Below are positions 1,683 to 30,846 of a DNA stretch of 54,330 bases, piece by piece. The translations under genes and the position numbers were made by a program. The stretch is from Dehalococcoidia bacterium (GTDB lineage: Bacteria; Chloroflexota; Dehalococcoidia; JAUSIH01): positions 1 through 54,330 of the forward strand of contig JAUSIH010000036.1 in the NCBI GenBank assembly GCA_030648205.1. Direction: 5' to 3'. The first letter of the stretch is position 1. Every line of letters begins with the position of its first letter. The notes under the pieces were generated by a model that worked only from the letters and a program-made list of their open reading frames with translations, ran no database searches and was not told the DNA's origin.

Positions 1683-2297
1683 GTGAAGGCCGGGCCCGGC
1701 ACGAGGTTGCCGGTGGACTATACTCCGTTACAGGATGAAGACCTGGCGGCGCGCATCGCCCTGGGGGACCGAGAGGCGTTGGGCCTGATTTATGACCGGT
1801 ACGCTCGCTTGGTGTTTTCGGTGAGTCTGCGCCTGCTCAGAGACAGTACGGTGGCGGAGGAGACCACGCAAGAGGTCTTTGTAAACCTATGGCTCCACGC
1901 GGGAACGTATCATGCGGACAAAGGCAAGTTTTCCACATGGCTGCTGAGCATCGCGCACAACCGCGCGGTGGACCAGCTCCGCCGCATGATCCGGGAGGGC
2001 AAGACCGTGCCGCTGGAAGGCCCCGAGATGGATCATGCCGCCTCGGATGGGCCGGACCCCGCGCAGGAGACCGCGCTCCTGGCGGACCGCCGGGCCGTCC
2101 GGCGTGGAGTGGACCAGTTGCCGCCTTTGCAACGCGAGGTCCTGGTCATGGCCTACTATCAAGGCCTCACCCAGGTGGAAATCGCGAACCAGTTGGGAGC
2201 GCCACTGGGGACTGTCAAGACGCGTATGCGTTTGGGTCTGCTTAAAATGCGGGACTTGCTCAGGAACCTCAATAGGGAGGAGAGCGATTCACGGTGA
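1683..2297 (+). CDS. ECF-family RNA polymerase sigma factor
   Basis: About 204 residues with the two-domain ECF layout. Region 2 covers roughly residues 25-100, with IYDRYARLVFSVSLR, EETTQEVFVNLW and FSTWLLSIAHNRAVDQLRR. Region 4 covers roughly 140-195, with LPPLQREVLVMAYYQGLTQ and the helix-turn-helix LGAPLGTVKTRMRLGL. It would direct RNA polymerase to a small regulon, probably held inactive by the anti-sigma factor encoded immediately downstream, whose gene overlaps it by four bases (GTGA). The start is uncertain: GTG at 1683 has no clear ribosome site, and GTG at 1711 (VDYTPLQ) is an alternative. The pairing resembles the SigK/RskA type. Family assignment is firm; the inducing signal is unknown. 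Confidence 0.93.
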   Translation: MKAGPGTRLPVDYTPLQDEDLAARIALGDREALGLIYDRYARLVFSVSLRLLRDSTVAEETTQEVFVNLWLHAGTYHADKGKFSTWLLSIAHNRAVDQLRRMIREGKTVPLEGPEMDHAASDGPDPAQETALLADRRAVRRGVDQLPPLQREVLVMAYYQGLTQVEIANQLGAPLGTVKTRMRLGLLKMRDLLRNLNREESDSR

Positions 2298-3127
2298 TCA
2301 ACGGTAGACGTCGCAGCCCACTGATCACGTGCGAGGATATGGGAGACCTCCTGGCGCCGTATGTCCTGGGGGCGCTGGACGCACTGGACAGAAGGCCTGT
2401 CGAGGACCATATGCGGGCGTGCGCCCCCTGCGCTCAGTTGGCGCACGAGTACCAGACGATAGCGTCGTCCCTGGCGTACGGCGTGTCCCTGGTCGAGCCG
2501 CCCCCCTCGCTGAAAGAACGGATCATGGCGCAAGTCGCGGTCATGCCACAGGCTGCCCGACCGCCGGCGCCTCCCCTAAGTCGCTGGCAGCGCCTGCGGG
2601 AGGGGCTGGACGTGTTCCTTAGACCACACGCCGCGGCGGTGGCCATGGCAGGCGCTTTGGGCATCGTCGCGCTGGCCATCTGGATCAGCGTCCTGCAGAC
2701 GGAGATCTCCAACGGGCGCTCCGCAAACCAGGCGATGGCCTGGACTCTGGAGCAGCAGCAGCAAACGCTTGCCTGGGCCACCACACCCGCGGTGCGCAGG
2801 TACGCGATGGACGGCACCGAGTCAGCGCCGACCGCGTGGGCGACCATGCTGTATAAGCCCGCGCACGAAGAGGCCATGCTGGTGGCTGGAGACATGCCGG
2901 CCCTCCCTTCGACAAAGGTCTATCAGCTCTGGCTCGTCCAGGATGGAGTGCGCACGAGCGGCGGCACGTTTACCGTGGACGCCAACGGGCGTGGACAGGT
3001 GTTGGTCCGCGCGCCCCTGCCCATCACGTCATACCAGTCTATGGGCGTGACCGTGGAACCGATGGGCGGCAGCCCCGGCCCTACAGGCGCACGCGTGCTC
3101 AGAGGTCCATCCCAGAACAACCCATAG
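2294..3127 (+). CDS. RskA-like membrane anti-sigma factor
   Basis: A 277-residue protein. The N-terminal zinc-binding anti-sigma motif is H-x3-C-x2-C (HMRACAPC), in a helix following LLAPYVLGALDAL. One transmembrane helix lies near residues 113-135 (AAAVAMAGALGIVALAIWI). The C-terminal extracytoplasmic RskA domain contains KVYQLWLVQDG and GGTFTVDANGRGQVLV. It should bind and inhibit the sigma factor encoded just upstream, releasing it when the outer domain senses a signal or is cleaved. The GTG start at 2294 overlaps the sigma stop codon, so translation is probably coupled and the two proteins are made in fixed ratio. Confidence 0.92.
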   Translation: MINGRRRSPLITCEDMGDLLAPYVLGALDALDRRPVEDHMRACAPCAQLAHEYQTIASSLAYGVSLVEPPPSLKERIMAQVAVMPQAARPPAPPLSRWQRLREGLDVFLRPHAAAVAMAGALGIVALAIWISVLQTEISNGRSANQAMAWTLEQQQQTLAWATTPAVRRYAMDGTESAPTAWATMLYKPAHEEAMLVAGDMPALPSTKVYQLWLVQDGVRTSGGTFTVDANGRGQVLVRAPLPITSYQSMGVTVEPMGGSPGPTGARVLRGPSQNNP

Positions 3128-3225
3128 GAACAAGGCCTTATTCAAGGGAAACGAGGGCTGAAAACAGGGTGCGTGGCGGATGGCGGGCAGGTTCAGCGCC
3201 GTGACGAAGCGGAAAAAGGACGAAT

Positions 3226-3342
3226 ATGAGCTCGGGTAAAACGCGATGGCTTCTGGCAGCCATCGCCCTGGTGACGGCATTGCCCCCCGTTGTTGGTGTG
3301 TACCTCTGGCTCCAGAGCTGCGGGGCCAGGCAGCGCACATAA
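3226..3342 (+). CDS. 38-residue single-pass membrane peptide
   Basis: A short complete frame begins MSSGKTRWLLAAIAL, continues through a hydrophobic stretch (about residues 8-31) and ends QSCGARQRT. It has a basic N-terminus, one membrane segment and one Cys. An AAAAAGGA ribosome site stands six bases before the ATG. It lies between the anti-sigma factor and the DUF1802 gene in the same direction and may belong to that transcript. It could act as a small regulator of the membrane anti-sigma factor, but that is only a suggestion. A non-coding spacer with a chance frame is the alternative. Confidence 0.5.
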   Translation: MSSGKTRWLLAAIALVTALPPVVGVYLWLQSCGARQRT

Positions 3343-3421
3343 GGCCCACGAGCGCTTCCCTGGCTGGGCCGTCGCGCTTGTGCTACCATTGATGTCACGG
3401 CTAGCCGGGGAGGGACATGAA

Positions 3422-3997
3422 ATGCTCGCTGTCCAGACAAAGGCCTTCAAGGAATGGGCCATCACGATACAGGCGCTTAGCGAAGGACGTCAGGTCCTGC
3501 TCCTGCGCAAGGGCGGCATCTATGAGGCGGGCGGCCGCTTCCAGGTGACTTCCCCAGAGTTCTTCCTGTATCCCACCCTTGAGCACCAGCGCGCCGACTT
3601 GCTGAAGCCCGAGTACCAACCGTGGCTGGCCCGCCTGCTGGCTGAGGACAGAAGCGACGGCAAGACGGTGACGCTCACCCACTATGCACGGGTCACCGAC
3701 GTCTTTCAGGTCACCGAGCCGGCCAAGCTCAATGCGCTCGCTCCCTACCACATATGGAGCGACGCCTATGCGGAGGTCCGCCTCCACTGGAAACCGCGCA
3801 CGCCCGTTTACGTCATGGCGCTGCGGGTCTATCGCCTGGCGCGACCGGACACGCAGCCCATCCTGCCCGCGTATGCGGGCTGCACGTCCTGGCTGGACAT
3901 GGCGGATGGCATCACCCTGCAGGGCATGACGCCCGTCCTCTCCGACGACCAGTACGAGCAGCGAACACGCCAGATTAAAGAAGCCCTGGACGCGTAA
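3422..3997 (+). CDS. DUF1802 family protein
   Basis: About 191 residues starting MLAVQTKAFKEWAITIQAL. The pattern of an N-terminal KEW..TI.AL, LLLRKGGIYE and a phenylalanine-rich segment (FFLYPTLEHQ) is typical of DUF1802 proteins, whose function is not established. The ATG at 3422 is chosen over upstream in-frame codons because GGGGAGG lies at a suitable distance before it, and because the residues upstream do not resemble the family. A strong terminator follows the stop, so it is the last gene of the plus-strand unit. Confidence 0.8.
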   Translation: MLAVQTKAFKEWAITIQALSEGRQVLLLRKGGIYEAGGRFQVTSPEFFLYPTLEHQRADLLKPEYQPWLARLLAEDRSDGKTVTLTHYARVTDVFQVTEPAKLNALAPYHIWSDAYAEVRLHWKPRTPVYVMALRVYRLARPDTQPILPAYAGCTSWLDMADGITLQGMTPVLSDDQYEQRTRQIKEALDA

Positions 3998-4015
3998 TTC
4001 ACATCAGGACAACAC

Positions 4016-4050
4016 GAAGGCCCCCGACACGCGTCGGGGGCCTTCTCCTT
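4016..4050. terminator. bidirectional intrinsic terminator
   Basis: A 13-bp GC-rich stem (GAAGGCCCCCGAC at 4016-4028 pairing with 4033-4045) has a 4-base loop and is followed by TCCTTTT. It sits between the convergent DUF1802 and corA genes and can serve both strands. Confidence 0.85.
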
Positions 4051-4102
4051 TTGACCGTGATGAGCCGAATGAACACTGGAGTGGTCCCTGTTCGTTCGAC
4101 TC

Positions 4103-5050
4103 CTAAAGCCACCCTCGGCGTCGGAACAGGAGAAGCATCACCGCCGCGATAGCCCCGCCGACCACGAAGTGGGCCCAGAAGAGCCACGGTTCGCCCTGAA
4201 AGGGAAGCGGCACGTTCATCCCGTAGAGCCCTGAGAAGACCATGAACGGCAACATGACCGTAAAGACGATCGTCAGCACGCGCACGACTTCGTTGGTGCG
4301 CTGCACGTTCAACGTCATGTAGGTCTCGTTCAGACCCACGGTGACCTCCTTGGTGTCCTGAAGCTCCGCCCAGATGCGCTGGATGTGGTCAACCACGTCG
4401 TCAAAGTAGGCGGACAGGTCTTCATTCATGAAATCGAAGCGCTTGTGGGCCAGGTACTGGAGGACGGCCACCTGGGGCCGGATAATCCGGTGCAGGGCGA
4501 TGATGTCCCGTCGGAGGATGGAAAGCTCGCGCACCGTCTCTTGCGTGTCCGCCTTCAGGACCTGGTCCTCCACACGCTCCACGTTCGACAGCACCTTGTT
4601 GACGATGGGGAAGCAGTAGTCCACCAAACGGTCCAGAATCCGGTATACAAGGTAGCCCGTGCCGCGGCCCATGACGTGCTCGCGAACGCGATGCTCTTCG
4701 CGGCACTCCTGAAACAGGCGGACCAGGGGCTTGAGGTCGCCGGCGTGGACGGTGACCACGTAGTCGGCGCCGACGAACATGGTCACCTGGCTTGGCTGGC
4801 TCACCCGCGTCTTCTTGTTGAAGACGGGGAAGTGGAAGAGCAGCAGGACATAGTCGTCGTACTCGTCAATCTTCGGGAGTTGGACGCGGCTGACGCAGTC
4901 TTCAAGGGCCAGAGGATGAAAGGAGTGGCTATCCCGCAGATAGCCTATCTCCCGGCTGGTAGGGCGCTCGATGTTCACCCAAGTAATCCCATGCCACTTG
5001 ACGGACGGGAGGTTGGGGTGCCCCGCCTGAGCTTCCGTCGTGACCGCCAT
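4103..5050 (-). CDS. corA: CorA-family divalent cation transporter
   Basis: A 315-residue protein with the CorA layout: an N-terminal alpha/beta cytoplasmic domain (DSHSFHPLALEDC, DEYDDYVLLLFHFP), a long helical stalk (about residues 150-250), and two C-terminal transmembrane helices. The signature YGMN lies at the end of the first helix (GMN at 277-279), followed by the short periplasmic loop and a basic tail, FRRRGWL. The family forms pentameric channels for Mg2+, Co2+ or Ni2+; the ion cannot be read from sequence. It is a separate unit from the glucan genes upstream, with a 67-base gap. Confidence 0.93.
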   Translation of the reverse strand: MAVTTEAQAGHPNLPSVKWHGITWVNIERPTSREIGYLRDSHSFHPLALEDCVSRVQLPKIDEYDDYVLLLFHFPVFNKKTRVSQPSQVTMFVGADYVVTVHAGDLKPLVRLFQECREEHRVREHVMGRGTGYLVYRILDRLVDYCFPIVNKVLSNVERVEDQVLKADTQETVRELSILRRDIIALHRIIRPQVAVLQYLAHKRFDFMNEDLSAYFDDVVDHIQRIWAELQDTKEVTVGLNETYMTLNVQRTNEVVRVLTIVFTVMLPFMVFSGLYGMNVPLPFQGEPWLFWAHFVVGGAIAAVMLLLFRRRGWL

Positions 5051-5117
5051 GCTCGCCCTTGCCCCCTAGAGCCGCGTTTGCGCAATATCCATTCTAACAC
5101 GGGCACAAACAGGAGCA

Positions 5118-7154
5118 TCAGCCGCCGGAGTGAGCACGGGCCCTTGTGCGCAAAAGCCTCGTCTTCGCGACGTAGTCCAGCACCGTGCTCACGAACTCCG
5201 CATGGCTCCAGCTTAGAGGGGAGACGGACAGCGGCTCACGGGTGTACGGATTCATCTGCTCCCCCAGGACGCCGCTGGGCAAAGCGCAACCCTGGACCCA
5301 CTCCAGGATTTTGCGCGCCGCATCCAGGTCCGCCAGATCTTCCGCCCGGGCGATATAGTACTGGGCGAGCCAGAGGGTGCAGATGAACCAGGGATTGCCC
5401 GGCACATTGGTGATGTCCCCGCTCACCTGGTGAAAATAGTCGTTCTCGTAGCGGGCCATGCCACCCACAGGGGTCCGGACACGCAGACGGTCCGCGATCT
5501 GCTCGACGGTGCTGACGATCATGGGGTCCCGAGCCGGAAACATGCCGAAGAGCGTCAGTCCCAGGATGCTGGAGTCCAGAATCGGGTCGGCCTCAAGGGG
5601 CTTGTCTCCATCCACTTTAAGGGTGCGCACAAAACAGTTCCGTTTTCGGTCGAACAGGTAGTTGACGGCGGCGTTGCGGATTTCTTCGGCGGCGCGCAGA
5701 TACTTTTCGCTCAGGTCCTGGTCGCTCAGCATGTGCGCGAAACGGGAGGCCGCTTGCAGGCCCGCCCACACCGCTGCGACTGTCCAGGCGTGGATGCCCC
5801 GGCGTTCCTCCCACAGGTCATAGGACGGCGCAGGCAATCCCGTGCGCGGATCGCGGTAGGAAGCAAGGAAGTCGCCCGCCGTCTTGATGAGCGGCCGGTA
5901 GAATGGCCGCACGAAGTCCACGTCCTTGTAGCGCTGGTAGTGCCGCCACATGGCATACAGCACCAGGCCCGTCTCGTCCTCCTGAATGGGTAGCTGCTTC
6001 TTGCCCTGGGCGTCGGCCCACGGGAGCCAGCTTGACGCCACCGGTCCGGCGGGCGTGTACTTGTGCATGAAATAGCCGTCGCTGGTCAGCAGCGGGATGC
6101 AATACTCGAAGAACCGCCGGGTCAGCGTCACGTAGCCCGCCTTGTCCAAGGCGATGGTGGATAGCGCGGCGTCCCTCGGCCACACGTATGCGTAGGTGTC
6201 GCGCGCATACGACGCCACCTCCCAGTCGGTGGACGCGACGATGGCGCCTTTATTGTCCACGTGGCTGCGCAGAATCAGAAGGGAGCGTTTGTAGAAGGAC
6301 TCCAGAGCAGGAGAGAGTTCCGCCACGTTCTCCTCGTCCTTCCGGCACCATACCTGCCAGAAGTTCCGCGTGCGGCTGATGAAACTCTGCGGCCCGCGCG
6401 AGCGCACCAGCGTGTCCAGACTCCGCACGTCGCTGACGCTGTCGCCAACAGCGAGCCAATGGTACAGACCGCTAGTGCCGTGCGCGGGCAGCGCACAGCC
6501 AAAGGCGAGCGTGGCATCCACCGACCCCTGCGCGACGAGGCCTTGCTCCAGCTTGCCGTCCTCGGCGTCGCGCCACGTGCCCTCGCGCCCTCCGACCTCC
6601 GTGACGCCGATGGCCCAGCTGTCCACGCCGATTTTTCCCCCGCTGGCACCATTCATGAGGAAATAGCGCTGGCCCTTGAACGCCACCAGCGCTCGCACGT
6701 CGGGGTCGTAGTACACCGTATCTGCCACGCGCACGCCGTAGATGTGCAAGTCGTAGTGGAAGTAGAAGCGCAGGTCACGAGTGGCGTCCGAGCGGTTGGT
6801 AATCTGGACTTCCCTGAGGAACAGGTCACGGTCCAAGTCCACCACGTCGTGGAAGACGAGAGTGAGCTGTGCCTCGTCATTCACCGCCGTCACATGGGTG
6901 ACAAGGCTGTCCTCCACGTAGCGGATGTCTTTTTTCCAGGCGGGGTGCTCCATCCAGTAGAAGCGCCCATCCACCCAGATGCCCGTGCGGCACATGTCGC
7001 CCGCGGTGTGGTTCTCCTGCCCCACGTTGTGGTAGAAGATGTCCCGCAGGTTGTAGTCCAGGTCGAAATTGACCTGGAGCTTGCCGTTGCCGATGCTCAG
7101 CGATCTTGGCACGCGGACCTGCCTTTCCGGGCGGCCCTGGACAGACGGCCCCAC
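5118..7154 (-). CDS. GH15 glucoamylase-like glycoside hydrolase
   Basis: A 678-residue protein. The N-terminal beta-sandwich domain (about 1-290; LDYNLRDIFYHNVGQENHT) precedes an (alpha/alpha)6 barrel. It carries VWPRDAALSTIALDKAGY, the general-acid motif LWEERRGIHAWT (Glu449/450) and, near the end, the general-base motif SWSHAEFVS (Glu about 653). GH15 enzymes release glucose from alpha-1,4/1,6-glucans or cleave related alpha-glucosides. There is no signal peptide, so it probably acts on cytoplasmic glucan. The gene starts 8 bases after the GH57 stop codon. GTG at about 7121 (VPRSLSIGNG) is an alternative start that fits the family better. Confidence 0.9.
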   Translation of the reverse strand: MGPSVQGRPERQVRVPRSLSIGNGKLQVNFDLDYNLRDIFYHNVGQENHTAGDMCRTGIWVDGRFYWMEHPAWKKDIRYVEDSLVTHVTAVNDEAQLTLVFHDVVDLDRDLFLREVQITNRSDATRDLRFYFHYDLHIYGVRVADTVYYDPDVRALVAFKGQRYFLMNGASGGKIGVDSWAIGVTEVGGREGTWRDAEDGKLEQGLVAQGSVDATLAFGCALPAHGTSGLYHWLAVGDSVSDVRSLDTLVRSRGPQSFISRTRNFWQVWCRKDEENVAELSPALESFYKRSLLILRSHVDNKGAIVASTDWEVASYARDTYAYVWPRDAALSTIALDKAGYVTLTRRFFEYCIPLLTSDGYFMHKYTPAGPVASSWLPWADAQGKKQLPIQEDETGLVLYAMWRHYQRYKDVDFVRPFYRPLIKTAGDFLASYRDPRTGLPAPSYDLWEERRGIHAWTVAAVWAGLQAASRFAHMLSDQDLSEKYLRAAEEIRNAAVNYLFDRKRNCFVRTLKVDGDKPLEADPILDSSILGLTLFGMFPARDPMIVSTVEQIADRLRVRTPVGGMARYENDYFHQVSGDITNVPGNPWFICTLWLAQYYIARAEDLADLDAARKILEWVQGCALPSGVLGEQMNPYTREPLSVSPLSWSHAEFVSTVLDYVAKTRLLRTRARAHSGG

Positions 7155-7162
7155 CTAAGCGC

Positions 7163-9301
7163 CTATTTTACACCTTCAGATGCCCAGCCCATCTCGAAGG
7201 TCACGGAGACGCCAGGCGCCAGGTCCAGAGGGAACAGGGGCGCCAGGCACGTCCCCTGGTACAGCCGTTCCACGCCCGCCTCCGAATTAGAGACGCTCTC
7301 CACGGAGAAGCGCCACAGCCGGACACTCGCGCCGAAGCTCAGCCGCAGACGCACGCCCAGCCCTGAGTTCTGCACGACGACCTGCTCCACTCCGTCAGTG
7401 GCACTCCGGCCATCCAGTGCGTCCTTCGCGCCGCCGGGCAGCGTCTCAAAGGTGGCGAGAGGGTTGCATCCGCCCGCCAGCATGTTCAGGTTCCACTCCG
7501 GCGCGAACAGGGCGCGCAAAGTCGCGTCGCCGGCGTTGCTCACGCGATAGATAACGCGCCACGCCGCGGAGTCGGGCCGCACACGCAGCTCCTTACGGAT
7601 ATGCAGCGGCTGTACCCGGCCCTGGATAAGAACGCGGCCCCTTCGTTCCAGCGCGATGATCAGATCTCTCTTGCCCCGGCGTCGCGTCGCGCGATAGACG
7701 CCCGCGGCGAAGTCCCCCAACTCCTGGTACCGGCAGCGGGCAAAGTCCTCCAGCGTGGTGTCCTCCGGCAAAACGTGGTCAATAAGGCTGTAGCGCGGGT
7801 GGCGGTCATAGTCCAGATCCACGCGCCCGCCCATGTCCTTGACGCGCAGGCCCGCGTGGATGGTCTCCACCCGGACGGCGGGCTTCTCGGCCTCCTGGCG
7901 CAGCGCCTCTCGAAGCGCTGTGTGATAGGCCTCCGGACGCCGCGCCACGGTGCTCTGAACGTTCCAATCTCTGCCGCGCAGGTCCCACTCGCAAAGGCTG
8001 CCGCCCTCGGCGGGGCGCAGGTAGAGGCCCAGCGCGCGCGACTCCACCAGAAGCTCTTCGTGGCCGTCGCAATCGTAGTCGCTCTCCTCCACCTCCAGCC
8101 ACGACGAGGACTGCTGAAGGACGCGGTCGGCGGCGGACTCCGCGCGCAGCAGGTGGCGGTAGTTGGCCGAGCGAACGTCCGCAAGGTAAAGCCCGCCGAA
8201 GACGCCGTGCCAGTAGGGACAGTTGCATTGGCCCTTCCACAGGTCGTCCAGCGCATCCCTCCCCAATCCGAGCGCACGGGCCAGGTGCACCTTGGCATGC
8301 ACGCGGAGCATCTTCTTATGCAGAAGGTTGGCCTCGGAGTATTTCGCCAGGAACACCCGCCAGAAGCCGCCGCGCATGTATGCGAGGACGTCCTTGCGGC
8401 CCTCCGCCTCCAGAGCATGCGTCAGGCGGGCGAACTCCTCCGACTTCCGCGCGGGCAGCGCCCACTCCATCATCTCGGAGTAGGAAGCGGCGGGCAGGTA
8501 GGCCCTGCCGAGTGGCGGCTGCGCGGCGGCCCAGTCCCCCAGGCGGACCGTCTGAAGCCACTCCGCATTCTGCTCCAGCGCGGTGAAGAAGCGTTCCACC
8601 CAGCCGTTAGTCCAGCAGTGGTCGCGCGTGCCGGGCCAGAGGCCAAGCTTTTCGCCGTCGTCTCCCATCACCGCTATCTTCGCGCCGTCCTCCGTCGCCT
8701 CTGAACGCAGATAGGCGATGACTTCGTCCACGTCCCGCCAGGGGATCATGTAACGCAGGCGCTTGCTGGACGCGAAGAGCTTGAGGACGTAGCCTTGCTC
8801 CTCCGTCAGGTAGTAGCCGAAGAGGTCCGCCTCATCCAGGCCCACCATCTCGAAATGCGCGTCGTCCACTACTGTCCACCCGACGCCCGCCTGCGCCAGC
8901 GGAGCGGGCAGGCCCGGCTCCCAGACGCGCTCGGCGAGCCACAGGCCGGAGGCGCGCGCGCCGAAATGCCGCCGCACCGCCCGCGTCATCTTCCGCACCT
9001 GCCCCACCTTGTCCACGTCCGGGACGGCGGGCAGAACAGGCTCGTAGTAACCGCCGGTCATCATCTCCACCTGACCGCGGCGCGCCAGCTCCGCGACCCC
9101 GCGGACGAAGTCGGGGCGCTCGGCGAGCAGCCAGTCCAGCAGCGGCCCGCTGTAGTGCAAGGAGACCCGGATAGTGGGGTGGCGCTCCAGCGCATCCAGA
9201 AGAGGCAGGTACGCCTGGGCATACGCCCGCTCGAGCACGGAGGGGAAGTTCCCGACGGGTTGGTGGCTGTGGATGGCCAGGCCGAGGGCGATACGCTTCA
9301 T
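7163..9301 (-). CDS. GH57 4-alpha-glucanotransferase/alpha-amylase type enzyme
   Basis: A 712-residue protein of the GH57 amylase A/4-alpha-glucanotransferase group. It shows the N-terminal HSHQPVGNF, the nucleophile motif WLAERVWEP (Glu124) and the acid/base motif MGDDGEKLG (Asp214). These positions nearly coincide with Glu123 and Asp214 of the Thermococcus litoralis enzyme. The C-terminal half carries the DUF1925/DUF1926 beta-sandwich regions (ESDYDCDGHEELLVESRALG; HPRYSLIDHVLPED). It should rearrange or shorten alpha-1,4-glucan chains in the cytoplasm. It is followed directly by the GH15 gene, which would act on its products. Confidence 0.92.
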   Translation of the reverse strand: MKRIALGLAIHSHQPVGNFPSVLERAYAQAYLPLLDALERHPTIRVSLHYSGPLLDWLLAERPDFVRGVAELARRGQVEMMTGGYYEPVLPAVPDVDKVGQVRKMTRAVRRHFGARASGLWLAERVWEPGLPAPLAQAGVGWTVVDDAHFEMVGLDEADLFGYYLTEEQGYVLKLFASSKRLRYMIPWRDVDEVIAYLRSEATEDGAKIAVMGDDGEKLGLWPGTRDHCWTNGWVERFFTALEQNAEWLQTVRLGDWAAAQPPLGRAYLPAASYSEMMEWALPARKSEEFARLTHALEAEGRKDVLAYMRGGFWRVFLAKYSEANLLHKKMLRVHAKVHLARALGLGRDALDDLWKGQCNCPYWHGVFGGLYLADVRSANYRHLLRAESAADRVLQQSSSWLEVEESDYDCDGHEELLVESRALGLYLRPAEGGSLCEWDLRGRDWNVQSTVARRPEAYHTALREALRQEAEKPAVRVETIHAGLRVKDMGGRVDLDYDRHPRYSLIDHVLPEDTTLEDFARCRYQELGDFAAGVYRATRRRGKRDLIIALERRGRVLIQGRVQPLHIRKELRVRPDSAAWRVIYRVSNAGDATLRALFAPEWNLNMLAGGCNPLATFETLPGGAKDALDGRSATDGVEQVVVQNSGLGVRLRLSFGASVRLWRFSVESVSNSEAGVERLYQGTCLAPLFPLDLAPGVSVTFEMGWASEGVK

Positions 9302-19063: not shown

Positions 19064-19939
19064 ATGATGCGACTTGGTGCTATTTTCCCTCAGACGGAGA
19101 TCGGCGCGGACCCGGGCGTCATCCGCGAGTATGCCCAGACGGTGGAGGGGCTTGGCTATCACCACCTGGGCGTCTATGACCACGTCCTCGGCGCCAATCC
19201 GGCCTCACGGCCCGGCTGGCAGGGCGCCTACACGCACAGGGAGATGTTCCACGAGCCGTTCGTTCTTTTCGGCTATCTCGCCGCCGTCGCGCCCAGGCTG
19301 GAGCTTGTCACGGAGATACTAGTCCTGCCGCAGCGCCAGACGGCGCTCGTCGCCAAGCAGGCCGCCGAGGTGGACATCCTCACCGGCGGCCGCCTTCGCC
19401 TGGGCGTCGGCATCGGATGGAACGCCGTGGAGTTCGAGGCCCTCGGCGAGGACTTCCACACTCGTGGACGCCGCGTGGAGGAGCAGGTGCGCGTGCTTCG
19501 CGCGCTGTGGACGAACGAGCTTGTGACGATCAAAGGGCGCTGGCACACCATCACCGACACAGGCATCAATCCGCTGCCCGTCCAGAGGCCGATTCCGGTC
19601 TGGATGGGCGGGACCGCGGACGCGGCGCTGAGGCGCATCGCGCGCATCGCCGACGGATGGTTCCCCCGCGAGGGGCCTACCGACAGGGGAAAGGCGCGAC
19701 TGGAGGCGTTCCGTGCGTATGCGCGCGAGGCGGGACGGGACCCCGCGAGCATCGGCGTAGAGGGCCGCATCAGCGTCGCCCGGCGCACGCCGGACGAGTG
19801 GATGGCGGAGGCGTCGGCGTGGCGCACCCTCGGCACGACGCATATCGCGGTCAACACCATGGGCGCGGGATTCCGGTCCGTCCGCGACCATCTGAACGCG
19901 CTGCGCCAGTTTAAAGAAGCAGCCACACCCCTTATCTAA
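19064..19939 (+). CDS. LLM-class (luciferase-like) F420-type oxidoreductase
   Basis: A 291-residue bacterial-luciferase-fold protein. It begins MRLGAIFPQTEIGADPG and has YHHLGVYDHVLG, AAVAPRLELVTEILVLPQR, GGRLRLGVGIGWNAVEFEAL and PIPVWMGGTADAALRRIARIADGWFP, the pattern of the F420-dependent TIGR03619-like subgroup. It would reduce or oxidise a substrate with a deazaflavin or flavin cofactor. The second ATG at 19067 may be the true start because GAGGTGA sits very close to the first. It follows valS closely but functionally fits the metabolic block downstream. The cofactor is inferred from family only. Confidence 0.88.
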   Translation: MMRLGAIFPQTEIGADPGVIREYAQTVEGLGYHHLGVYDHVLGANPASRPGWQGAYTHREMFHEPFVLFGYLAAVAPRLELVTEILVLPQRQTALVAKQAAEVDILTGGRLRLGVGIGWNAVEFEALGEDFHTRGRRVEEQVRVLRALWTNELVTIKGRWHTITDTGINPLPVQRPIPVWMGGTADAALRRIARIADGWFPREGPTDRGKARLEAFRAYAREAGRDPASIGVEGRISVARRTPDEWMAEASAWRTLGTTHIAVNTMGAGFRSVRDHLNALRQFKEAATPLI

Positions 19940-20152: not shown

Positions 20153-20752
20153 ATGGACAAGTTACGCATCCTTGATCCCGTGGTGGAGTCCCCGAAGGAA
20201 GACAAGGGCCTCGCGCCGCTTCTGGACAGCGTGGAGGGCAAGTCGGTTTTCTTCCGCATTCAGTGGGACGCCTATGACGTGTTCACGAACCGCTTTCGTG
20301 AGCTGCTGGAAGAACGCGCTCACCCGCGCGAGGTCACCACGCTGGACCTGCGCTACGAGTCGCCGGACTACGTGCCCTACGCCGACCGCCGCAATAAAGA
20401 GAAGTGGACGAAGAAATTCGACGGCTACGCCGCGAAGGCGGACTGGGCCGTCATGGGCCTGGCGGCCTGAGGCTCCTGCACGGCGTGGTGTATCCACGAT
20501 ACGATTGACATGCAGAAGCGCGGCGTGCCCACGGTGACGCTCGTCACCGAGCAGTTCGTCTCGCTGGCGAAGGCGGCCGCGAAGTCGCTCGGCTATCCGG
20601 ACATCCCGCTGGTCGTCGTGCCGCACCCGTTCGAGACGATGCCCCGTGACCGGGTGCGCAAGCTGGCGGAGCAGAAGTACGACGAGATTGTGGGCAAGGT
20701 GGTCAAGGCCACTCCTCATCGCGTGCCGGGGAAGCCAGAGGCGGCGCGATGA
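20153..20752 (+). CDS. UGSC-type selenoprotein 1 (in-frame UGA read as Sec106)
   Basis: The frame from ATG 20153 (TGGAGGTAGC upstream) reaches TGA at 20468-20470 and continues, in the same frame, to a TGA at 20750-20752, giving 199 residues if the first UGA is selenocysteine. The junction reads VMGLAA-U-GSCTAWCIHDTIDM, an exact UGSC motif. The second half (KRGVPTVTLVTEQF) has no start of its own that would give a full domain. The second UGSC gene at 24652 aligns on both sides of its own UGA, and a SECIS-like hairpin follows. UGSC (seleno)proteins are an annotated family without an established reaction; U-x-x-C suggests thiol/selenol redox chemistry. It overlaps the next gene by four bases (ATGA). 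Confidence 0.87.
20468..20515 (+). promoter_or_regulatory. bacterial SECIS-like element of selenoprotein 1
   Basis: A hairpin downstream of the UGA: CGTGG (20484-20488), loop TGTAT, CCACG (20494-20498), with a possible asymmetric lower stem CTGCA (20476-20480)/TGCAG (20511-20515). The apical loop starts 18 bases after the UGA and has G at its second position. This fits known bacterial SECIS rules (loop 16-37 bases from UGA, G among the first two loop bases). It would recruit SelB with Sec-tRNA. Confidence 0.72.
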
Positions 20753-22013: not shown

Positions 22014-23384
22014 ATGAGCCTGGAAGCGCGTATCGCCAAACACGCCGCCGCGGTGCGATTCGAGGACTTGCCCAGGGAAGCAGTGGATGCGGCGAAGAAA
22101 GAAATACTGTGGGCGCTGGGCACCTCCGTCGCGGGCGCGGGCGCGACCGGCTCTGAGATGGTGCTGACAGTGGTGCGCGAGCTCAGCCGAGGTTGCACCG
22201 GCGACGCTACCATCATTGGGTACGAAGAGCGGGCGCCGGCGCTGCTGGCGGGCTTCGCCAACGGAGTGTTCGCCAAGGCCGTCGAATACGAGGACAAGCA
22301 CTGGTTTGGCAACACGCACGCCTACGCCATCGGCGTCGCGGTGGTGCCCGCGGCCTTCGCTGTTGGCGAGCATCTGGGCGGTGTTGATGGCAAGGCGCTG
22401 GTCAATGCCGTGGCGGTGGCGACGGATGTTCAGGCGCGCCTCGTCAATGGGGCGCCCAATGCCATCAAAACGCCCTTCAACGCCACCTATATGTTCTCGC
22501 ACTTCGGGGCGACTATCGCGGCGGCCAAGCTCCTTCGCTTGACGGAAGAGCAGATGATTGATGCCCTGGGTATCGCCTATACACAGGCGGCGGGCACCTT
22601 TCAGGCCCATCACGAAGGAACCCTGGCCGTCCGCATGCAGATGGGCTTCTGCGTTCGCAATGGCGTCTTCGCCGCGCTCATGGCGAGGGCCGGCATAGAT
22701 GGCCCCCACCAGTTCCTGACCGGGCGCAGTGGCCTGTACCCAAGCTTCTATAAGGAGTGCGCTGAAGAAGCCATCGTGAAAGACCTGGGGGCTATGTTCT
22801 GGGGAACGAGGCTGGGCTTCAAGGGCTATCCCTGCTGCGCCGCCATGCACCAGGCCCTGGATGCGATGTTCCAGGTGAAGCAGGCCCATAAGATCAGGCC
22901 GGAGCAGGTCGTGGCCGTTGACGTCTACGGCTCCCCCAGCATGGCTATTACCTGTGCACCAATTGAGGAGAAGCGGCGCCCACGGAATCACGTGGAGCAG
23001 GAGTTCAGCCTGCCGTGGGCGGCGGCCTGCGCCCTGACAGACGACCGTCTCGACCTGAGCCACTTCCAGGACGCCGCTCTGAAGGACGCGGCGAAGATGG
23101 CCCTCGCGCGGAAAGTCACCGCACACACAGACCCGAAGGACGCCCAAGTCTATGCGGTTGTCACGCTGACCGATGGCCGGAAGCTCACGTCGGCGCGCAT
23201 AGGCCCGCCAACGGGGCACCCCGATAAGCCGATTCCCCTTGCGGAGCTTATCAGACGCTACGACGACTGTGTGACATACAGCCCCCGGCCTCTGGCTCAC
23301 GAGAAGACAAAGCGAGCAAGAGACCTGGTGCTGGCGCTTCCGGACGTTCCGGACGCAACGGAGGCGATAAAGCTGCTTGCCTGA
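22014..23384 (+). CDS. MmgE/PrpD-family protein
   Basis: A 456-residue protein with the all-helical N-terminal MmgE/PrpD domain and the alpha/beta C-terminal domain. Typical segments are LPREAVDAAKKEILWALGTSVAGAG (residue run split here: EILWALGTSVAGAG), GFANGVFAKAVEYEDKHW, AYAIGVAVVPAAFAVGE, GTFQAHHEGTLAVRMQMGFC and GFKGYPCCAAMHQALD. Known members are 2-methylcitrate dehydratase and cis-aconitate decarboxylase; many are uncharacterised isomerases or dehydratases. It lies between the two mirrored selenoprotein modules, so a shared pathway for an organic acid is likely but unproven. GAGGTG precedes the ATG. Confidence 0.9.
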   Translation: MSLEARIAKHAAAVRFEDLPREAVDAAKKEILWALGTSVAGAGATGSEMVLTVVRELSRGCTGDATIIGYEERAPALLAGFANGVFAKAVEYEDKHWFGNTHAYAIGVAVVPAAFAVGEHLGGVDGKALVNAVAVATDVQARLVNGAPNAIKTPFNATYMFSHFGATIAAAKLLRLTEEQMIDALGIAYTQAAGTFQAHHEGTLAVRMQMGFCVRNGVFAALMARAGIDGPHQFLTGRSGLYPSFYKECAEEAIVKDLGAMFWGTRLGFKGYPCCAAMHQALDAMFQVKQAHKIRPEQVVAVDVYGSPSMAITCAPIEEKRRPRNHVEQEFSLPWAAACALTDDRLDLSHFQDAALKDAAKMALARKVTAHTDPKDAQVYAVVTLTDGRKLTSARIGPPTGHPDKPIPLAELIRRYDDCVTYSPRPLAHEKTKRARDLVLALPDVPDATEAIKLLA

Positions 23385-24632: not shown

Positions 24633-24651
24633 TTGAAGGAGGCAAACCGTC

Positions 24652-25233
24652 ATGATGAAGCTTCGAGTCCTCGACCCCACGGGTGAGGCGGCGCAGCCGG
24701 AGAGCAAGCTGGCGCCGCGCCCCACGGACCTCACCGGCAAGGTGCTGTGGTTTGTGGACGGCCGCGGCCATGTGGAGAACAGCGTGCCGGGAATGAACCG
24801 CATCTTCCGCGTCTGGAAGGAGCGACTCCAGAAGGAGTACAAGCTCGGCGACGTGCGCTACGTGCGGACGGACAACATCGCCTCGCCGTTCCGCCACGGC
24901 AAAGAGACGTTCGAGGAGATCGTCCGGACGGCAGACGTGGTCGTCAACGGCGTTGCGCTCTGAGGCGGCTGCACGTCGTGCAGTGTGCACGATGCAGTCC
25001 AGATGGAGCGGCGCGGCGTGCCGACCGTCACCCTCGCCCACGACGTCTTCGAGAGGGCCGCGCACGCCCAGGCGAAGGTCATGGGGGCGCCGGACCTGCC
25101 CATCGCAGTCGTCTCCCAGCTCATCTACAACCGTGGCACGGACGAAGAGGTGAAGAAGGCGGCGGACGCGCTATACCCGCTGGTGGTGAAGAGCCTGACC
25201 TCCGGCGTCGCGAAGCCTCTGCCGCAAAGGTAG
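24652..25233 (+). CDS. UGSC-type selenoprotein 2 (in-frame UGA read as Sec104)
   Basis: From ATG 24652 (GAAGGAGG upstream) the frame meets TGA at 24961-24963 and continues without shift to TAG at 25231, giving 193 residues. The junction reads NGVAL-U-GGCTSCSVHDAVQM, a UGGC variant that also forms U-x2-C-x2-C. It matches selenoprotein 1 on both sides: KLRVLDP at the N-terminus, then HDxxxMxxRGVPTVTL after the Sec. The compact hairpin after the UGA is listed separately. U-x2-C-x2-C recalls the redox centre of glycine-reductase-type selenoproteins as I remember it, but there is no other similarity to claim. A coding-like tail follows the TAG. Confidence 0.87.
24961..24997 (+). promoter_or_regulatory. 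bacterial SECIS-like element of selenoprotein 2
   Basis: An upper stem TCGTGC (24976-24981), loop AGTGT and GCACGA (24987-24992) is stacked on a lower stem CTGCA (24969-24973)/TGCAG (24993-24997) with a 2-base bulge. The loop begins 18 bases after the UGA, exactly as in selenoprotein 1, with G at its second position. Confidence 0.8.
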
Positions 25234-25370: not shown

Positions 25371-25622
25371 ATGACCCTGAAAGAAGAAATTCACCGGCTG
25401 ATTGACGTGCTGCCCGAGAAAGAGTTGCCGACAGTGCGTCGTTTCGTGCAGTACGTCCGGCTCCTCCATGAGGACCCCGTTTTCCGCGCGCTTCTGGAGG
25501 CGCCTCTGGACGACGAGCCGGAGACCCCGAAGGAAGCAGCCGCCGTACGCGCAGCGCGGCGCGCGTTGAAGCGCGGCGATGTCGTCGCGGACGCCGACCT
25601 CGCCCGCGAGCTGGGGCTGTGA
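25371..25622 (+). CDS. type II antitoxin (partner of ParE/RelE-type toxin)
   Basis: An 83-residue acidic protein beginning MTLKEEIHRLIDVLPEKEL. The helical N-terminus (LPTVRRFVQYVRLL) resembles the DUF2281-like/RHH-like antitoxins. The charged C-terminal half (ALKRGDVVADADLARELGL) would wrap the toxin. AAGGAG stands before the ATG. Its stop overlaps the toxin GTG by four bases, typical of antitoxin-toxin pairs. The family is assigned mainly by position and size. Confidence 0.8.
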   Translation: MTLKEEIHRLIDVLPEKELPTVRRFVQYVRLLHEDPVFRALLEAPLDDEPETPKEAAAVRAARRALKRGDVVADADLARELGL

Positions 25623-25876
25623 CTTGGCGCGTCATCTGGACAGGCCCGGCCGCTCACGATATGCGCCGGCTGGACCGCCAGATAGCGAAACGCATCCGCG
25701 ACAGGGCCCTGCGCTTCGCCGAAACGGGACAGGGGGACATCAAACGGCTGCAAGGACATGAACAGGAGTGGCGCTTGCGCGTCGGAGACTGGCGCGTGAG
25801 GCTGACCTTCGACGTCCACGACGGAACAATGAACATCCTGCGGATTCACCATCGCAGCGAGGGATATCGGAAATAG
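25619..25876 (+). CDS. ParE/RelE-superfamily toxin
   Basis: An 85-residue basic protein starting at GTG 25619. It has the RelE/ParE fold pattern: WRVIWTGPAAHDMRRLD, GDIKRLQGHEQEWRLRVGDW and VRLTFDVHDGTMNILRIHHR, ending EGYRK. RelE members cut mRNA at the ribosome and ParE members poison gyrase; which applies here cannot be read from sequence. It is co-transcribed with the antitoxin just upstream. Together they form a small addiction module next to the selenoprotein block. Confidence 0.88.
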   Translation: MTWRVIWTGPAAHDMRRLDRQIAKRIRDRALRFAETGQGDIKRLQGHEQEWRLRVGDWRVRLTFDVHDGTMNILRIHHRSEGYRK

Positions 25877-26853: not shown

Positions 26854-28185
26854 ATGGACGAACTACGGAAAGCTCAGCCTCTCTACGGCGTACGCGTTTT
26901 AGACTTTGGACAGGCGTACGCTGCGCCGTGCGCCGCGCGCCTCCTCGCGGACATGGGCGCGGATGTGGTCAAGGTCGAGCCGCCCAGCGGCGACTTCTGC
27001 CGCCTCAGCGGTCGCGTGGAGGGCGACAGCGCCGTCTTCCTCGGTCTCAACCGGGGCAAGCGCAGCATATCGCTGGACCTCACCACCGATAAGGGCCGCG
27101 CGGTCGCCATAAAACTCGTGAAGAAGGCGGACGTGCTCGTCGAGAACTTCCGGGTCGGCGTGCTGGACAAGATGGGGCTGGGTTACGAGGCCACCAAGAA
27201 GCTGAACCCGCGCCTCATCTACTGCTCCATCTTCTCCTATGGAAGCACCGGCCCGTGGGTCCGCCGTCGCGGGGGCGACCCGTGGGCGCAGGCCGTCAGC
27301 GGCATCGTCGCCAGCATGGGTGTCAAAGGCCAGCCGCCGCAGATGATCGGGCACTCCGTCATCGACTTCTCCATCGGCGCCATGACGGCGTTCGCAATCA
27401 TGAACGCGCTGTTTCAGCGTCAGGTTACGGGCAAGGGCACGCGCGTGAGCACCAACCTGATCCACGCGGCCCTCTTTCTGCAGGAAGGCGCGTTTCACGA
27501 CTACACGGTGGACGACGTCCTGCACGTCAAGTGGGGACGCGGCCTTCGCGGCCTGTTCCCCTTCGGCCCGTATCCGGCCAAGGACGGAGACGTGCTGACC
27601 ATCTACGGCCAGGACGACGTGGAGTGGGCGGACATCTGCTCCATCCTGGGCATCGAGCACCTCCTGGCGGACGAGCGGTACGACACGCTGGAGAAGCGCA
27701 TCGAACGCAAGCCCGAGTTGTACCCAATTCTGGACGAGGCGTTCAGGAAGAAGACGCGCGAGGAGTGGAAGGACGCGTTCCGGGCGCGGAACTACCGGTG
27801 CGATCCGTGCCTCAACTACCAGGAACTGATGGAGACCGAGCAGTTCAAGGCGAACAATATGCTGCTCGACGTGGACCACCCCACGGAGGGCAAGCTGCGC
27901 CTGCTGGGCAACCCGGCTCAGGTAAGCGAGAACAGCGAGTGGCGCGGCGACACGCGGCACCCTCCGCTCATCGGTGAGCACTCGCGCGAGGTCATGAAGG
28001 AGGCCGGCTACACCTCTGCGCAGATCGAAGCGCTCATGTCGGAAGGTGTTGCCGTTGAACCGGAGCCCGCCTCCATCAAGATCAGAGGCCGCGACAAGTC
28101 CATGCGGTCGGCCACGCAAGTCTCCGACAAGAGCCGCATGCAAGCGCAAGCGCAGGCCAACCAGGACCAGCTACAGCGGAAGTAA
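26854..28185 (+). CDS. CaiB/BaiF family CoA-transferase
   Basis: A 443-residue class III CoA-transferase. Signatures are GVRVLDFGQAYAAPCAARLLADMGADVVKVE (shown in part: ADMGADVVKVE), LNRGKRSISLDL, ADVLVENFRVGVLDKMGLGY and the catalytic-Asp region RRGGDPWAQAVSGIVASMG. The last 40 residues (from about 405) are a hydrophilic, Gln/Ala-rich tail beyond the usual family end. Members move CoA between carboxylic acids. Its place after the selenoprotein/MmgE block suggests activation of the organic acid handled there; this is inference. The gene has its own start 98 bases after the HEPN gene, with a TACAAT at 26799-26804 but no good -35. Confidence 0.93.
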   Translation: MDELRKAQPLYGVRVLDFGQAYAAPCAARLLADMGADVVKVEPPSGDFCRLSGRVEGDSAVFLGLNRGKRSISLDLTTDKGRAVAIKLVKKADVLVENFRVGVLDKMGLGYEATKKLNPRLIYCSIFSYGSTGPWVRRRGGDPWAQAVSGIVASMGVKGQPPQMIGHSVIDFSIGAMTAFAIMNALFQRQVTGKGTRVSTNLIHAALFLQEGAFHDYTVDDVLHVKWGRGLRGLFPFGPYPAKDGDVLTIYGQDDVEWADICSILGIEHLLADERYDTLEKRIERKPELYPILDEAFRKKTREEWKDAFRARNYRCDPCLNYQELMETEQFKANNMLLDVDHPTEGKLRLLGNPAQVSENSEWRGDTRHPPLIGEHSREVMKEAGYTSAQIEALMSEGVAVEPEPASIKIRGRDKSMRSATQVSDKSRMQAQAQANQDQLQRK

Positions 28186-28620: not shown

Positions 28621-29571
28621 GTGGAGACACCCAAGGATATCGCCGCCAGGATCATCGCCAATGTCCAGAAGGTCATCATCGGCAAAGACCAGGAGGTGGA
28701 ACTGGCCCTCATCGCCCTGCTGTGCCAGGGCCATGCCCTGATTGAGGACGTGCCGGGCGTCGGCAAGACGACGCTGGCCAAGAGCATCTCCCGGTCCATG
28801 GGATGCACCTTCAAGCGCATCCAGTTCACGCCGGACCTTCTCCCCAGTGATATCACCGGAGTCTCCGTTTACAATCAGAAGACGGGGACATTTGAGTTCC
28901 GAGCGGGGCCGGTCTTCGCTCAGATCGTGCTGGCCGACGAGATCAACCGGGGCACGCCCAAGACCCAGTCTGCCCTGCTGGAGGCGATGGAGGAGCGGCA
29001 GGTCACGGTGGACGGCCTGACCCACAAGATGCCCCGCCCGTTCCTGGTGCTCGCCACGCAGAACCCCATCGAGTATGAAGGGACGTTCCCATTGCCCGAG
29101 GCCCAGCTCGACCGGTTTCTGCTCCGCATCACCCTTGGCTACCCTTCGGCGGCCGACGAGGTCACCATCGTCCAAAAGCAGCAGATTACACATCCCATTG
29201 ATGCGCTGGACCAGGTGGCATCCCCGGAGGAACTCGTGGAGCTGCAGGATGCGATCAAAAAAGTCTACCTGGACCCCATCCTGATCCAGTACATAGTCAG
29301 TCTGGTGGATGCCACGCGATCCCATTCGTCGGTGTACTTGGGAGCATCGCCGCGCGGCTCTCTGTCCCTATCGAAAGCAGCCCAGGCGCACGCTCTGCTG
29401 CGGGGCAGGGCGTTTGTGCTGCCGGACGACATCAAGGGCCTGGCGAGCCCCGTGCTGGCCCACAGGATTATCATTGGCGCGGCGGCCCGGATGAAAGAGG
29501 TGACCGTGAAGCAGGTGGTGGCTGAAGTGCTCAACAACGTTCCGGTCCCGGGCGCCCGGGTCCAGCGCTAG
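28621..29571 (+). CDS. MoxR-family AAA+ ATPase
   Basis: A 316-residue protein starting at GTG 28621, with AAGGAGG just upstream. It carries Walker [11 protein letters not shown], Walker [10 protein letters not shown], the MoxR segment [22 protein letters not shown] (in part: [18 protein letters not shown]) and sensor-2 [20 protein letters not shown]. MoxR ATPases act as chaperones that help assemble or activate protein complexes, often with a DUF58 partner. Here the DUF58 gene follows 24 bases later and a transglutaminase-like membrane protein after that, the common three-gene arrangement. Confidence 0.94.
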
Positions 29572-29595
29572 AAGCCCATCACAGAGAGAGATCCC

Positions 29596-30846
29596 ATGCG
29601 AGGAAGCAAGGCGGCCCTCATCATTCTAGCCTCCACGATGGTCTTCGCGCTGGCCACGGGGTTTCCCCTGCTCACTCGCTTCATCTACGTCCTGATCCTG
29701 GGCATGGGACTCACGTTTCTCTGGACATGGTTGAGCCTGCGCGGGCTGCATGTAACGGTTGACCGCCGCACCTCCCGCACCCAGGTAGGCCGACAGGCGG
29801 ATGAGACTATCACCATCCGCAGCGACAGTGTCCTGGGGAAGCCCTGGCTGGATGTCCAGGAAGCGACCACCATGCAAGGGCAGCGCACAGGCGCCGTTGT
29901 TTCTCTGGGGCCGAAGAGCGAACACACCTGGGACCTGCAACTGGAGTGCCTGCGTCGGGGTGTGTTCACCGTGGGGCCGGTGCGCGTGGCCACAGGCGAC
30001 CCGTTTGGCCTTTTCCGGCTGGAGCGCTCGATGGGTGGCACGCATACGCTCATAGTGTACCCGGCCACGGTTGACCTCCCCAATCTGACCCTGCCCCCCG
30101 CGGACCTGCCCGGCACTGCCGCGTTCTACCGTCGCAGCCTGCATGTCACCCCCAATGCTTACGGCGTCCGCGAGTACGTGGCCGGCGACAGCTACAACCG
30201 CATTCACTGGCCTACGACGGCGCGTGTGGGGCGGCTCATGGTGAAAGAGTTCGAGATGGAGCCCACCAGCGATGTCTGGATTGTGGTGGACGGCCAATCC
30301 GCGGTCCAGGCAGGGACATGGCCGGACAGCACGGAGGAATACGCTTGCACCGCGGCTGCGTCAGTCGCGCGCAAATACCTTGAGAATAACTACACTGTCG
30401 GCCTGCTGGCGCACGGGGCGGAGGCGCACATCTTGCCCGCCGACCGGGGCGACCCCCAGTTCACGCGTATCCTGGAGGCCCTGGCGCTGTTCCAGGCCCG
30501 CGGCTCCGTGGGCCTGGGAGATATTCTCGCCGCCCGCGGAGAGCGCTTTGGCCGCCACACGACGGTGGTGCTGATCACCGCCGCAGCCGACCACGACTGG
30601 CTTGCAGCGGTGCGCTTCCTCGTTCGCCGCAAGGTCAAGGCAGCGGCTATTTTGCTGGACGCATCCACCTTTGGCGCCCGAGGGAGCGTGCAGCCCGTTG
30701 TGAGCGGGCTGGCGGCGCTGGGCGTCCCCGCATGCACCGTAAAGAGAGGGGAGCCTCTTTCCACCGCCCTTCGGCTGGAGATGACGACGGGGACGAGGCC
30801 CATCGCCCGAGAGCAGTACGTGCCCAGGCGGGAGGCGCGCCCATGA
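29596..30846 (+). CDS. DUF58 domain protein (MoxR partner)
   Basis: A 416-residue protein. Two N-terminal membrane helices (about residues 5-45: ALIILASTMVFALATGFPLL, then FIYVLILGMGLTFLW) precede a beta-rich segment, the DUF58 motif RVGRLMVKEFEMEP and a VWA-like domain (VWIVVDGQSAV). AYGVREYVAGDSYNRIHWP is characteristic. It probably anchors or presents a substrate for the MoxR ATPase at the membrane. Its stop codon overlaps the next start (ATGA). Confidence 0.92.
   Translation: MRGSKAALIILASTMVFALATGFPLLTRFIYVLILGMGLTFLWTWLSLRGLHVTVDRRTSRTQVGRQADETITIRSDSVLGKPWLDVQEATTMQGQRTGAVVSLGPKSEHTWDLQLECLRRGVFTVGPVRVATGDPFGLFRLERSMGGTHTLIVYPATVDLPNLTLPPADLPGTAAFYRRSLHVTPNAYGVREYVAGDSYNRIHWPTTARVGRLMVKEFEMEPTSDVWIVVDGQSAVQAGTWPDSTEEYACTAAASVARKYLENNYTVGLLAHGAEAHILPADRGDPQFTRILEALALFQARGSVGLGDILAARGERFGRHTTVVLITAAADHDWLAAVRFLVRRKVKAAAILLDASTFGARGSVQPVVSGLAALGVPACTVKRGEPLSTALRLEMTTGTRPIAREQYVPRREARP

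Follow-up and report, generated by a model that had tools for sequence, protein, structure and literature searches.

An in-frame UGA interrupts P0002, a gene encoded by a Dehalococcoidia bacterium (assembly GCA_030648205.1, JAUSIH01), and it provokes two questions: is this codon read as selenocysteine (Sec), and, if it is, what kind of enzyme results? The window analyzed here is the whole 54,330-nucleotide stretch of contig JAUSIH010000036.1, and its pertinent features are collected in Table 1. The P0002 frame opens with ATG at 24652, closes with TAG at 25231-25233, and contains a single in-frame TGA, at residue 104; read through, it specifies 193 amino acids, and the product begins MMKLRVLDP...VNGVAL-U-GGCTSCSVHDAV...LPQR. 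Modeled alone, the protein yields a good structure (pLDDT 87.0, pTM 0.84) in which the Sec sits between a strand (residues 96-102) and a helix (residues 105-120).

Table 1. Coordinates of the UGSC genes, their partners and neighboring features in the window.
Feature	Position	Strand	Remarks
Luciferase-like monooxygenase family gene	19064..19939	+	PF00296 7.6e-49; upstream of cluster, candidate cluster member at most
P0001, first UGSC selenoprotein gene	20153..20752	+	PF24696 4.7e-33
TGA read as selenocysteine, U106 of P0001	20468..20470	+	Motif U-G-S-C-T-A-W-C; column of the 41 family TGAs
SECIS apical hairpin of P0001	20484..20498	+	Stem CGTGG 20484-20488 / CCACG 20494-20498; loop TGTAT 20489-20493
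P0003, partner gene of P0001, 352 aa	20749..21807	+	ATG overlaps TGA stop of P0001 (ATGA); 33% identity to P0004
P0005, MmgE/PrpD-family gene between both UGSC/partner pairs	22014..23384	+	PF03972 9.6e-49; PF19305 1.6e-25
P0004, partner gene of P0002, 373 aa	23511..24632	+	Ends 19 bp upstream of P0002; no Pfam/NCBIfam match
P0002, UGSC-family selenoprotein gene	24652..25233	+	PF24696 1e-39, 136.8 bits vs cut-off 25; translated with TGA=U; AAGGAGG at 24636-24642 before ATG
TGA read as selenocysteine, U104 of P0002	24961..24963	+	Motif U-G-G-C-T-S-C; common column with all 41 family TGAs
SECIS apical hairpin of P0002	24977..24991	+	Stem CGTGC 24977-24981 / GCACG 24987-24991; loop AGTGT 24982-24986
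CoA-transferase family III gene	26854..28185	+	PF02515 1.2e-108; downstream of cluster, candidate cluster member at most

Both P0002 and its paralogue P0001 (115.2 bits) score far above the PF24696 cut-off, which places them in the UGSC family. This family corresponds to the "UGSC-containing protein" of Zhang and Gladyshev (2008), for which the available text of their Global Ocean Sampling selenoproteome study (PMC2398784) gives 255 Sec and 21 Cys sequences. The window proteins share with the published family its sequence, its U-G-x-C motif, a bacterial SECIS directly after the UGA, and the occurrence of Cys homologues elsewhere; unlike the members of the NCBIfam equivalog NF041046 (UGSC_fam), they score below its cut-off of 125 bits (88.5 and 93 bits). 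One of the two also has a CGGC-like motif and a weak score against the CGGC domain (PF08821), but at 14.3 bits it falls short of the cut-off of 27. P0002 is very probably a selenoprotein of an already known, uncharacterized Pfam family. The part that merits follow-up is its context: a near-constant unnamed partner, gene fusion, a copy number above that of published selenoproteomes, and a link to GrdB.

Is the codon in P0002 the equivalent of the others in its family? In the window genome (2.69 Mb, 95% complete), PF24696 has 46 matches, 41 of which contain exactly one TGA, and when all 46 are aligned a single column holds all 41 TGAs. The UGAs of P0001 and P0002 therefore align, as the sequence-only reading had claimed. 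That reading had also placed the two genes 4.2 kb apart and called P0002 a second selenoprotein; the start-to-start distance is 4.5 kb, and P0002 is one of about 41 from one family in this genome. The other five matches comprise three fused copies that lack the motif and two that are cut or fragmentary, and none has Cys at the Sec column. Among the TGA copies the motif is U-G-S-C in 27, U-G-G-C in eight, U-G-A-C in five and U-G-V-C in one. Cys at +6 occurs in three of the 41, fewer than the 13 in which Trp is followed by Cys at +7. The UGGC variant and the U-x2-C-x2-C spacing of P0002 had been taken to suggest a distinct redox role. This idea finds no support, given these counts and the fact that UxxCxxC is also a motif of GrdB, GrdF and GrdH in the available text of PMC6778437.

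The proteins P0001 and P0002 are 34% identical over 196 aligned columns. In a tree of 189 UGSC domains they fall into separate supported clades, P0001 among 11 rows (support 99) and P0002 among 17 rows (support 96), and the two window copies thus represent old, separate lineages. The row nearest to the P0002 clade comes from a related genome, JACPQD01 (support 90). A phage collection searched with P0001 gave no match. Farther along the window lie a ParE-type toxin gene (PF05016) preceded by a short gene where an antitoxin would be expected (25371-25876), an AbiU2 HEPN-domain gene (PF18734; 25904-26755), and a MoxR-type AAA ATPase gene followed by a DUF58 gene (28621-30846).

The hairpins downstream of the two UGAs were examined with respect to selection. 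The loop lies 18 bases 3' of the UGA in both paralogues, and the hairpin of P0002 is the stronger (minimum free energy of the 39-nt segment, -19.7 vs. -8.5 in P0001); both points agree with the earlier claims. Across the 41 paralogues, the total folding energy of these 39 nt is not special (mean z -0.39; 11 of 41 below -1), and we dropped it as SECIS evidence. Because an Rfam scan of the window at gathering thresholds returned no match, the SECIS was tested on the paralogues themselves; because the hairpin region is also coding, stem pairing was compared against synonymous-codon shuffles. In this layout, the bases at +14 to +18 after the TGA pair with those at +24 to +28, enclosing a five-base loop. 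The five-base-pair stem has on average 4.32 pairs, against 3.35 in the shuffles (sd 0.12, maximum 3.68 in 500); all five pairs form in 26 of the 41 paralogues, and four or more in 33.

Covariation gives the same picture. The covariance analysis proposed for the two hairpins was run on all 41 paralogues: 21 cells show compensatory double changes, compared to 7.1 in the shuffles, and none of the 500 shuffles reaches 21. The stem covariation score is 0.338, and sliding the partner strand brings it to no more than 0.104. At codon 8, where Val leaves the third base free, that base tracks base 18: GTC accompanies G seven times and GTG accompanies C nine times, with GTG and G together twice (Fisher p 0.002 for these three kinds) and GTA with C once as exceptions. 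The stem recurs in 77 copies from JACPQD01 (best register, with a one-base shift allowed, 4.90 vs. 3.67 in shuffles, sd 0.10) and likewise at 64 TGA sites from the named loci (4.75 vs. 3.61, sd 0.11). At six Cys sites, a small sample, there is no excess over shuffles (2.67 vs. 2.55, sd 0.34).

The window genome also has the means to use such an element. SelB (351 bits), SelA (564 bits) and SelD (366 bits, with one TGA of its own) are all over their cut-offs, and a tRNA-Sec is found at C102:18137-18230 (69 bits), with a second match of 52.8 bits on contig C40. On contig C1, SelA and a UGSC match are separated by about 260 bp, and on C102 the tRNA-Sec is about 1.5 kb from another. On the latter contig, positions 2171-7493 of locus L088 bring together the tRNA-Sec, a thioredoxin gene and the one full UGSC copy without partner, along with SBP_bac_5-type and MFS genes. 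The UGSC proteins of this genome show the marks by which bacterial selenoproteins are recognized: homology that continues past the UGA together with Cys relatives, a selected SECIS directly downstream, and SelA, SelB, SelD and tRNA-Sec in the genome.

Could the UGA nevertheless mean something else? UGA is a stop by default, and P0002 might then be a truncated 103-residue protein or a decaying pseudogene. Existing annotations of Acidovorax sp. T1 and Paracoccus ferrooxidans do break the gene at this codon; they do so because the UGA was called a stop. This reading is very improbable, as all 41 TGAs occupy one column with continuous homology on both sides, Cys relatives run through the position without a break, the SECIS is under selection at synonymous sites, and the Sec machinery is complete; on the same evidence, the earlier preference for read-through over pseudogenization stands. 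A general code change that assigns UGA to another amino acid, such as Trp or Cys, would leave the frame open like any other reading of UGA, and nothing specific speaks for it. It, too, is highly unlikely: UGA terminates P0001, the UGSC genes at C48:8284, C26:14444 and C20:12708, other UGSC genes, and P0005, and there is thus no general reassignment in this genome. Further, the fixed-distance stem is specific to Sec, and the relatives carry Cys, not Trp. From the sequence evidence, we conclude that the UGA of P0002 very likely encodes Sec.

Forms of the protein with Cys in place of Sec occur in Natrialba, Candidimonas, Parapusillimonas, two Mycobacterium genomes and one Binatia genome, and the UGSC tree places the Cys rows within groups of Sec rows at two or more separate points. 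Whether Cys replaces Sec where Sec is lacking, as the sequence-only reading had asked, has a divided answer in four Cys-bearing genomes. In Natrialba asiatica and Candidimonas nitroreducens, neither SelA nor SelB exceeds the cut-off; both are present in Mycobacterium gordonae and Parapusillimonas granuli, and loss of Sec alone therefore does not account for Cys use. SelA and SelB are both present in three genomes with many Sec copies, JACPQD01, JACQGN01 and CANKAJ01. Eleven plasmid loci were fetched, with seven Cys forms, two Sec forms and two copies without the motif. The Sec-form UGSC genes of Acidovorax sp. T1 plasmid p2-T1 (L257, 8446-8964) and P. ferrooxidans pFER4 (L262, 7444-7935) are annotated as truncated or split hypothetical proteins, and pFER4 has an annotated selB about 4.5 kb from its UGSC copy.

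If P0002 is a selenoprotein, does it act alone? Next to each window copy is a gene (P0003 or P0004) whose product matches nothing in NCBIfam up to E 0.1 and no Pfam family above its cut-off. The two products are homologues of one another, and they also share homology with the C-terminal half of UGSC frames of 570-618 amino acids. In the window genome, 35 of the 37 unfused UGSC matches have such a partner of about 350 residues on the same strand within 600 bp, and nine more UGSC matches are fused to it. The other two are a fragment at the end of a contig (C87) and the copy adjoining the tRNA-Sec (C102). Conversely, the UGSC loci of this genome hold 52 partner frames, more than there are UGSC matches; some partners therefore stand alone. 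A scan of genome contigs with P0002 alone found no relative. With the partner alignment, a scan of the species-genome collection gave 574 relatives, of which 80 were kept; UGSC lies within the fetched flanks in 68 of these named loci, and several of the other 12 are cut by contig ends.

The partner is also strongly conserved: its near-invariant residues include Asp30, Gly31, Gly80, Cys81, Asn147, Arg152 and Glu186, with Cys81 present in 177 of 181 sequences. A fused UGSC-partner protein is modeled as one confident structure (pLDDT 93.8, pTM 0.93). Sequence searches of the PDB found nothing for P0002 or for the partner profile, and three weak, unrelated rows for the UGSC profile. A fold search of the PDB with the UGSC domain returned only generic Rossmann-type rows (best Z 10.8, rmsd 5.0, 165 aligned). 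Since the fused model drew rows that align almost exclusively to its UGSC half, no new fold is claimed for the partner. Taken as a whole, the pairing and fusion make it highly likely that UGSC and partner form one enzyme.

What chemistry might such an enzyme perform? Around the motif, the window UGSC proteins weakly match glycine reductase selenoprotein B in NCBIfam (0.0025 and 0.031). GrdB-/PrdB-like genes of related genomes, with their TGA read through, contain ...LTGT-U-GTGTRCGATLTKEMERAGIPGV, and a profile of ten such sequences aligns to the UGSC profile with an hhalign probability of 90% (E 1.7e-6, 141 columns), with the Sec columns aligned; with only the three full-length sequences the probability is 56%. 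The two groups have in common an alignable C-terminal domain around the Sec, a U-G-x-x-T pattern and a later E-x-x-G-[IV]-P, a two-subunit layout and, in some UGSC members, linkage to trxB or trxA. UGSC differs, however, in lacking the N-terminal GrdB domain, and its partner is unrelated to GrdE by profile. On TIGR01917 the window proteins reach 16.8 and 13.2 bits vs. a cut-off of 602.2, and PF07355 has no match in the window genome. These profile comparisons provide moderate support for a putative kinship between the Sec domains of UGSC and GrdB/PrdB. The partner was considered separately as a GrdE homologue: against a GrdE homologue (itself PF09338, 1.5e-111) hhalign gave 0.05%, and neither P0003 nor P0004 matches PF09338. 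The idea that the partner matches a GrdB-type profile likewise found no support. Two genomes of the same bacterial class (G018 and G006) contain full-length GrdB-like selenoproteins (L221, L239 and L222), with U-G-T-G-T-R-C or U-G-T-S-T-R-S; in these, one or both Cys of UxxCxxC are missing.

Genes near UGSC were surveyed for hints of function. On plasmids, UGSC/partner pairs are found in clusters that look catabolic, together with CoA-transferases, transporters and regulators of the LysR or IclR type. For a comparison with control regions, the scan covered 108 ORFs out of 149 near UGSC and 108 out of 122 in the control; they derive from random picks of 110, in which one antisense ORF was swapped for the P0005 frame, two antisense ORFs were dropped and the last two control ORFs omitted. 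SBP_bac_5 appeared 11 times near UGSC and three times in the control, CoA_transf_3 eight and three times, and MFS_1 five times near UGSC but not among the first 25 control entries listed; these differences are suggestive, and no significance is claimed for them. Phosphosulfolactate synthase genes near UGSC pairs on an Arthrobacter plasmid (L260, 5671-6459) and a Natrinema plasmid (L266, 2853-3320) may hint at sulfonate chemistry.

A trxB gene is close to the pair on plasmids of Variovorax SRS16, Roseovarius THAF8 and Arthrobacter ERGS1:01, the last of which also has trxA, and Candidimonas has a trxB relative near its pair. Within the fetched flanks, this linkage is seen at four of 13 Cys-type loci and at none of the Sec loci examined. 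Glycine reductase clusters contain trxB and trxA as well, according to the text available from PMC2897892 and PMC6778437. The presence of trxB at Cys loci supports thiol recycling for the Cys form.

These observations suggest the following scheme. The SECIS hairpin would bring SelB and tRNA-Sec to the message, and Sec would be placed at the UGA of P0002. In a two-subunit enzyme, P0002 would then supply the nucleophile and P0004 would be the other subunit; elsewhere in the family, both are joined in a single fused chain. The partner would bind an organic substrate, presumably with the aid of the near-invariant Asp30-Gly31, Cys81, Asn147 and Arg152. By analogy to glycine reductase component B and proline reductase, the Sec selenolate could attack this substrate and drive a reductive cleavage. 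The Sec might subsequently bond to the Cys at +3 (UxxC) as a selenenyl-sulfide, which thioredoxin or another dithiol would reopen. The many diverged paralogue pairs may serve different imported organic compounds.

We lean toward this reading, in which P0002 belongs to a thiol-reduced, two-subunit selenoenzyme that works like glycine reductase component B; GrdB-like reductive chemistry of UGSC and its partner is, by analogy, somewhat favored. A different possibility has to be weighed: a genuine paired selenoprotein might reduce peroxides or disulfides instead, or use its selenolate as the nucleophile of a non-reductive transfer or lyase reaction. UxxC is widespread as a thiol-redox motif, the neighbors are of many enzyme types with no single pathway, and the fold matches are generic. 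In addition, the three fused copies that lack the motif still keep their frame, and part of the fold may thus work without it. Against this stand the strong conservation and repeated fusion of the partner, the transporter and CoA-transferase neighbors, and a similarity that points to GrdB/PrdB and not to thioredoxin-fold proteins. We regard such a non-GrdB-like enzyme as rather unlikely, albeit one that deserves serious consideration.

How widespread are these proteins? Of the 393 genomes of the class, 132 have the family. A fuller scoring of 60 genomes (the window genome included) found UGSC in 23, mostly in one to eight copies; G045, G044 and G021 have 17, 15 and 12, and JACPQD01 (G027) is an outlier. 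This 5.0-Mb MAG ("Chloroflexi bacterium isolate NC_groundwater_644_Ag_B-0.1um_60_123") has at least 150 UGSC matches, all 150 scored candidates of 208 having been positive. One TGA is present in 143 of these 150, two in three and none in four, for at least 146 TGA-bearing copies. In 336.5 kb of this genome there are 79 UGSC domains, of which 78 have the TGA at the motif and 63 are fused to the partner; among the matches listed, single contigs of 359 and 350 kb hold at least 18 and at least 20 copies. In one copy on the minus strand (L138:5488-7213, contig C101), the motif Cys is also encoded by TGA (U-G-T-U-T-S-W), which could represent a double-Sec UxxU active site. Outside the Chloroflexota, the betaproteobacterial MAGs JACQGN01 (G403) and CANKAJ01 (G404) have 32 and 34 copies.

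Published maxima for a bacterial selenoproteome rose from 39 to 57 and then 63 genes in the available text of PMC5029168, PMC9312934 and PMC13188914, and the last of these, a 2026 review, warns of co-assembled strains in such counts. Strain co-assembly was considered as a cause of the high copy numbers and rejected: nearest-paralogue identity is at most 90.7% in JACPQD01 (median 71, 79 domains) and at most 70.7% in the window genome (median 52, 41 copies). In the available text of open-licence PMC papers, preprints excluded, we found no mention of the partner, the fusion, the 41 to 146 or more copies per genome, or the GrdB link.

About forty copies in one genome and at least 146 in a related one, nearly all beside or fused to a single partner, point to a large unstudied class of selenium-dependent enzymes. 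This one family accounts for 41 selenoproteins in a genome of 2.7 Mb and for 146 or more in one of 5.0 Mb, and the latter figure would more than double the largest selenoproteome that we found in print (63). Sec is costly and usually sparse in proteomes. The copy numbers of UGSC thus raise the question of why Sec pays so often in one fold. The near-constant partner offers a tangible starting point for working out the role of UGSC proteins, and carriers of the Cys form in culture (Natrialba, Parapusillimonas, Variovorax and others) make function testable at the bench. Our tentative proposal, for which we claim less than even confidence, is that UGSC and its partner constitute a new superfamily of two-subunit reductases, dependent on selenium and recycled by thiols, that diverged from the GrdB/PrdB Sec domain and took on a different substrate subunit. 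In some groundwater Chloroflexota it would have multiplied to between 41 and at least 146 diverged enzymes per genome, which would make for the largest known selenoproteomes and, perhaps, a toolkit for the reductive breakdown of many dissolved organic compounds.
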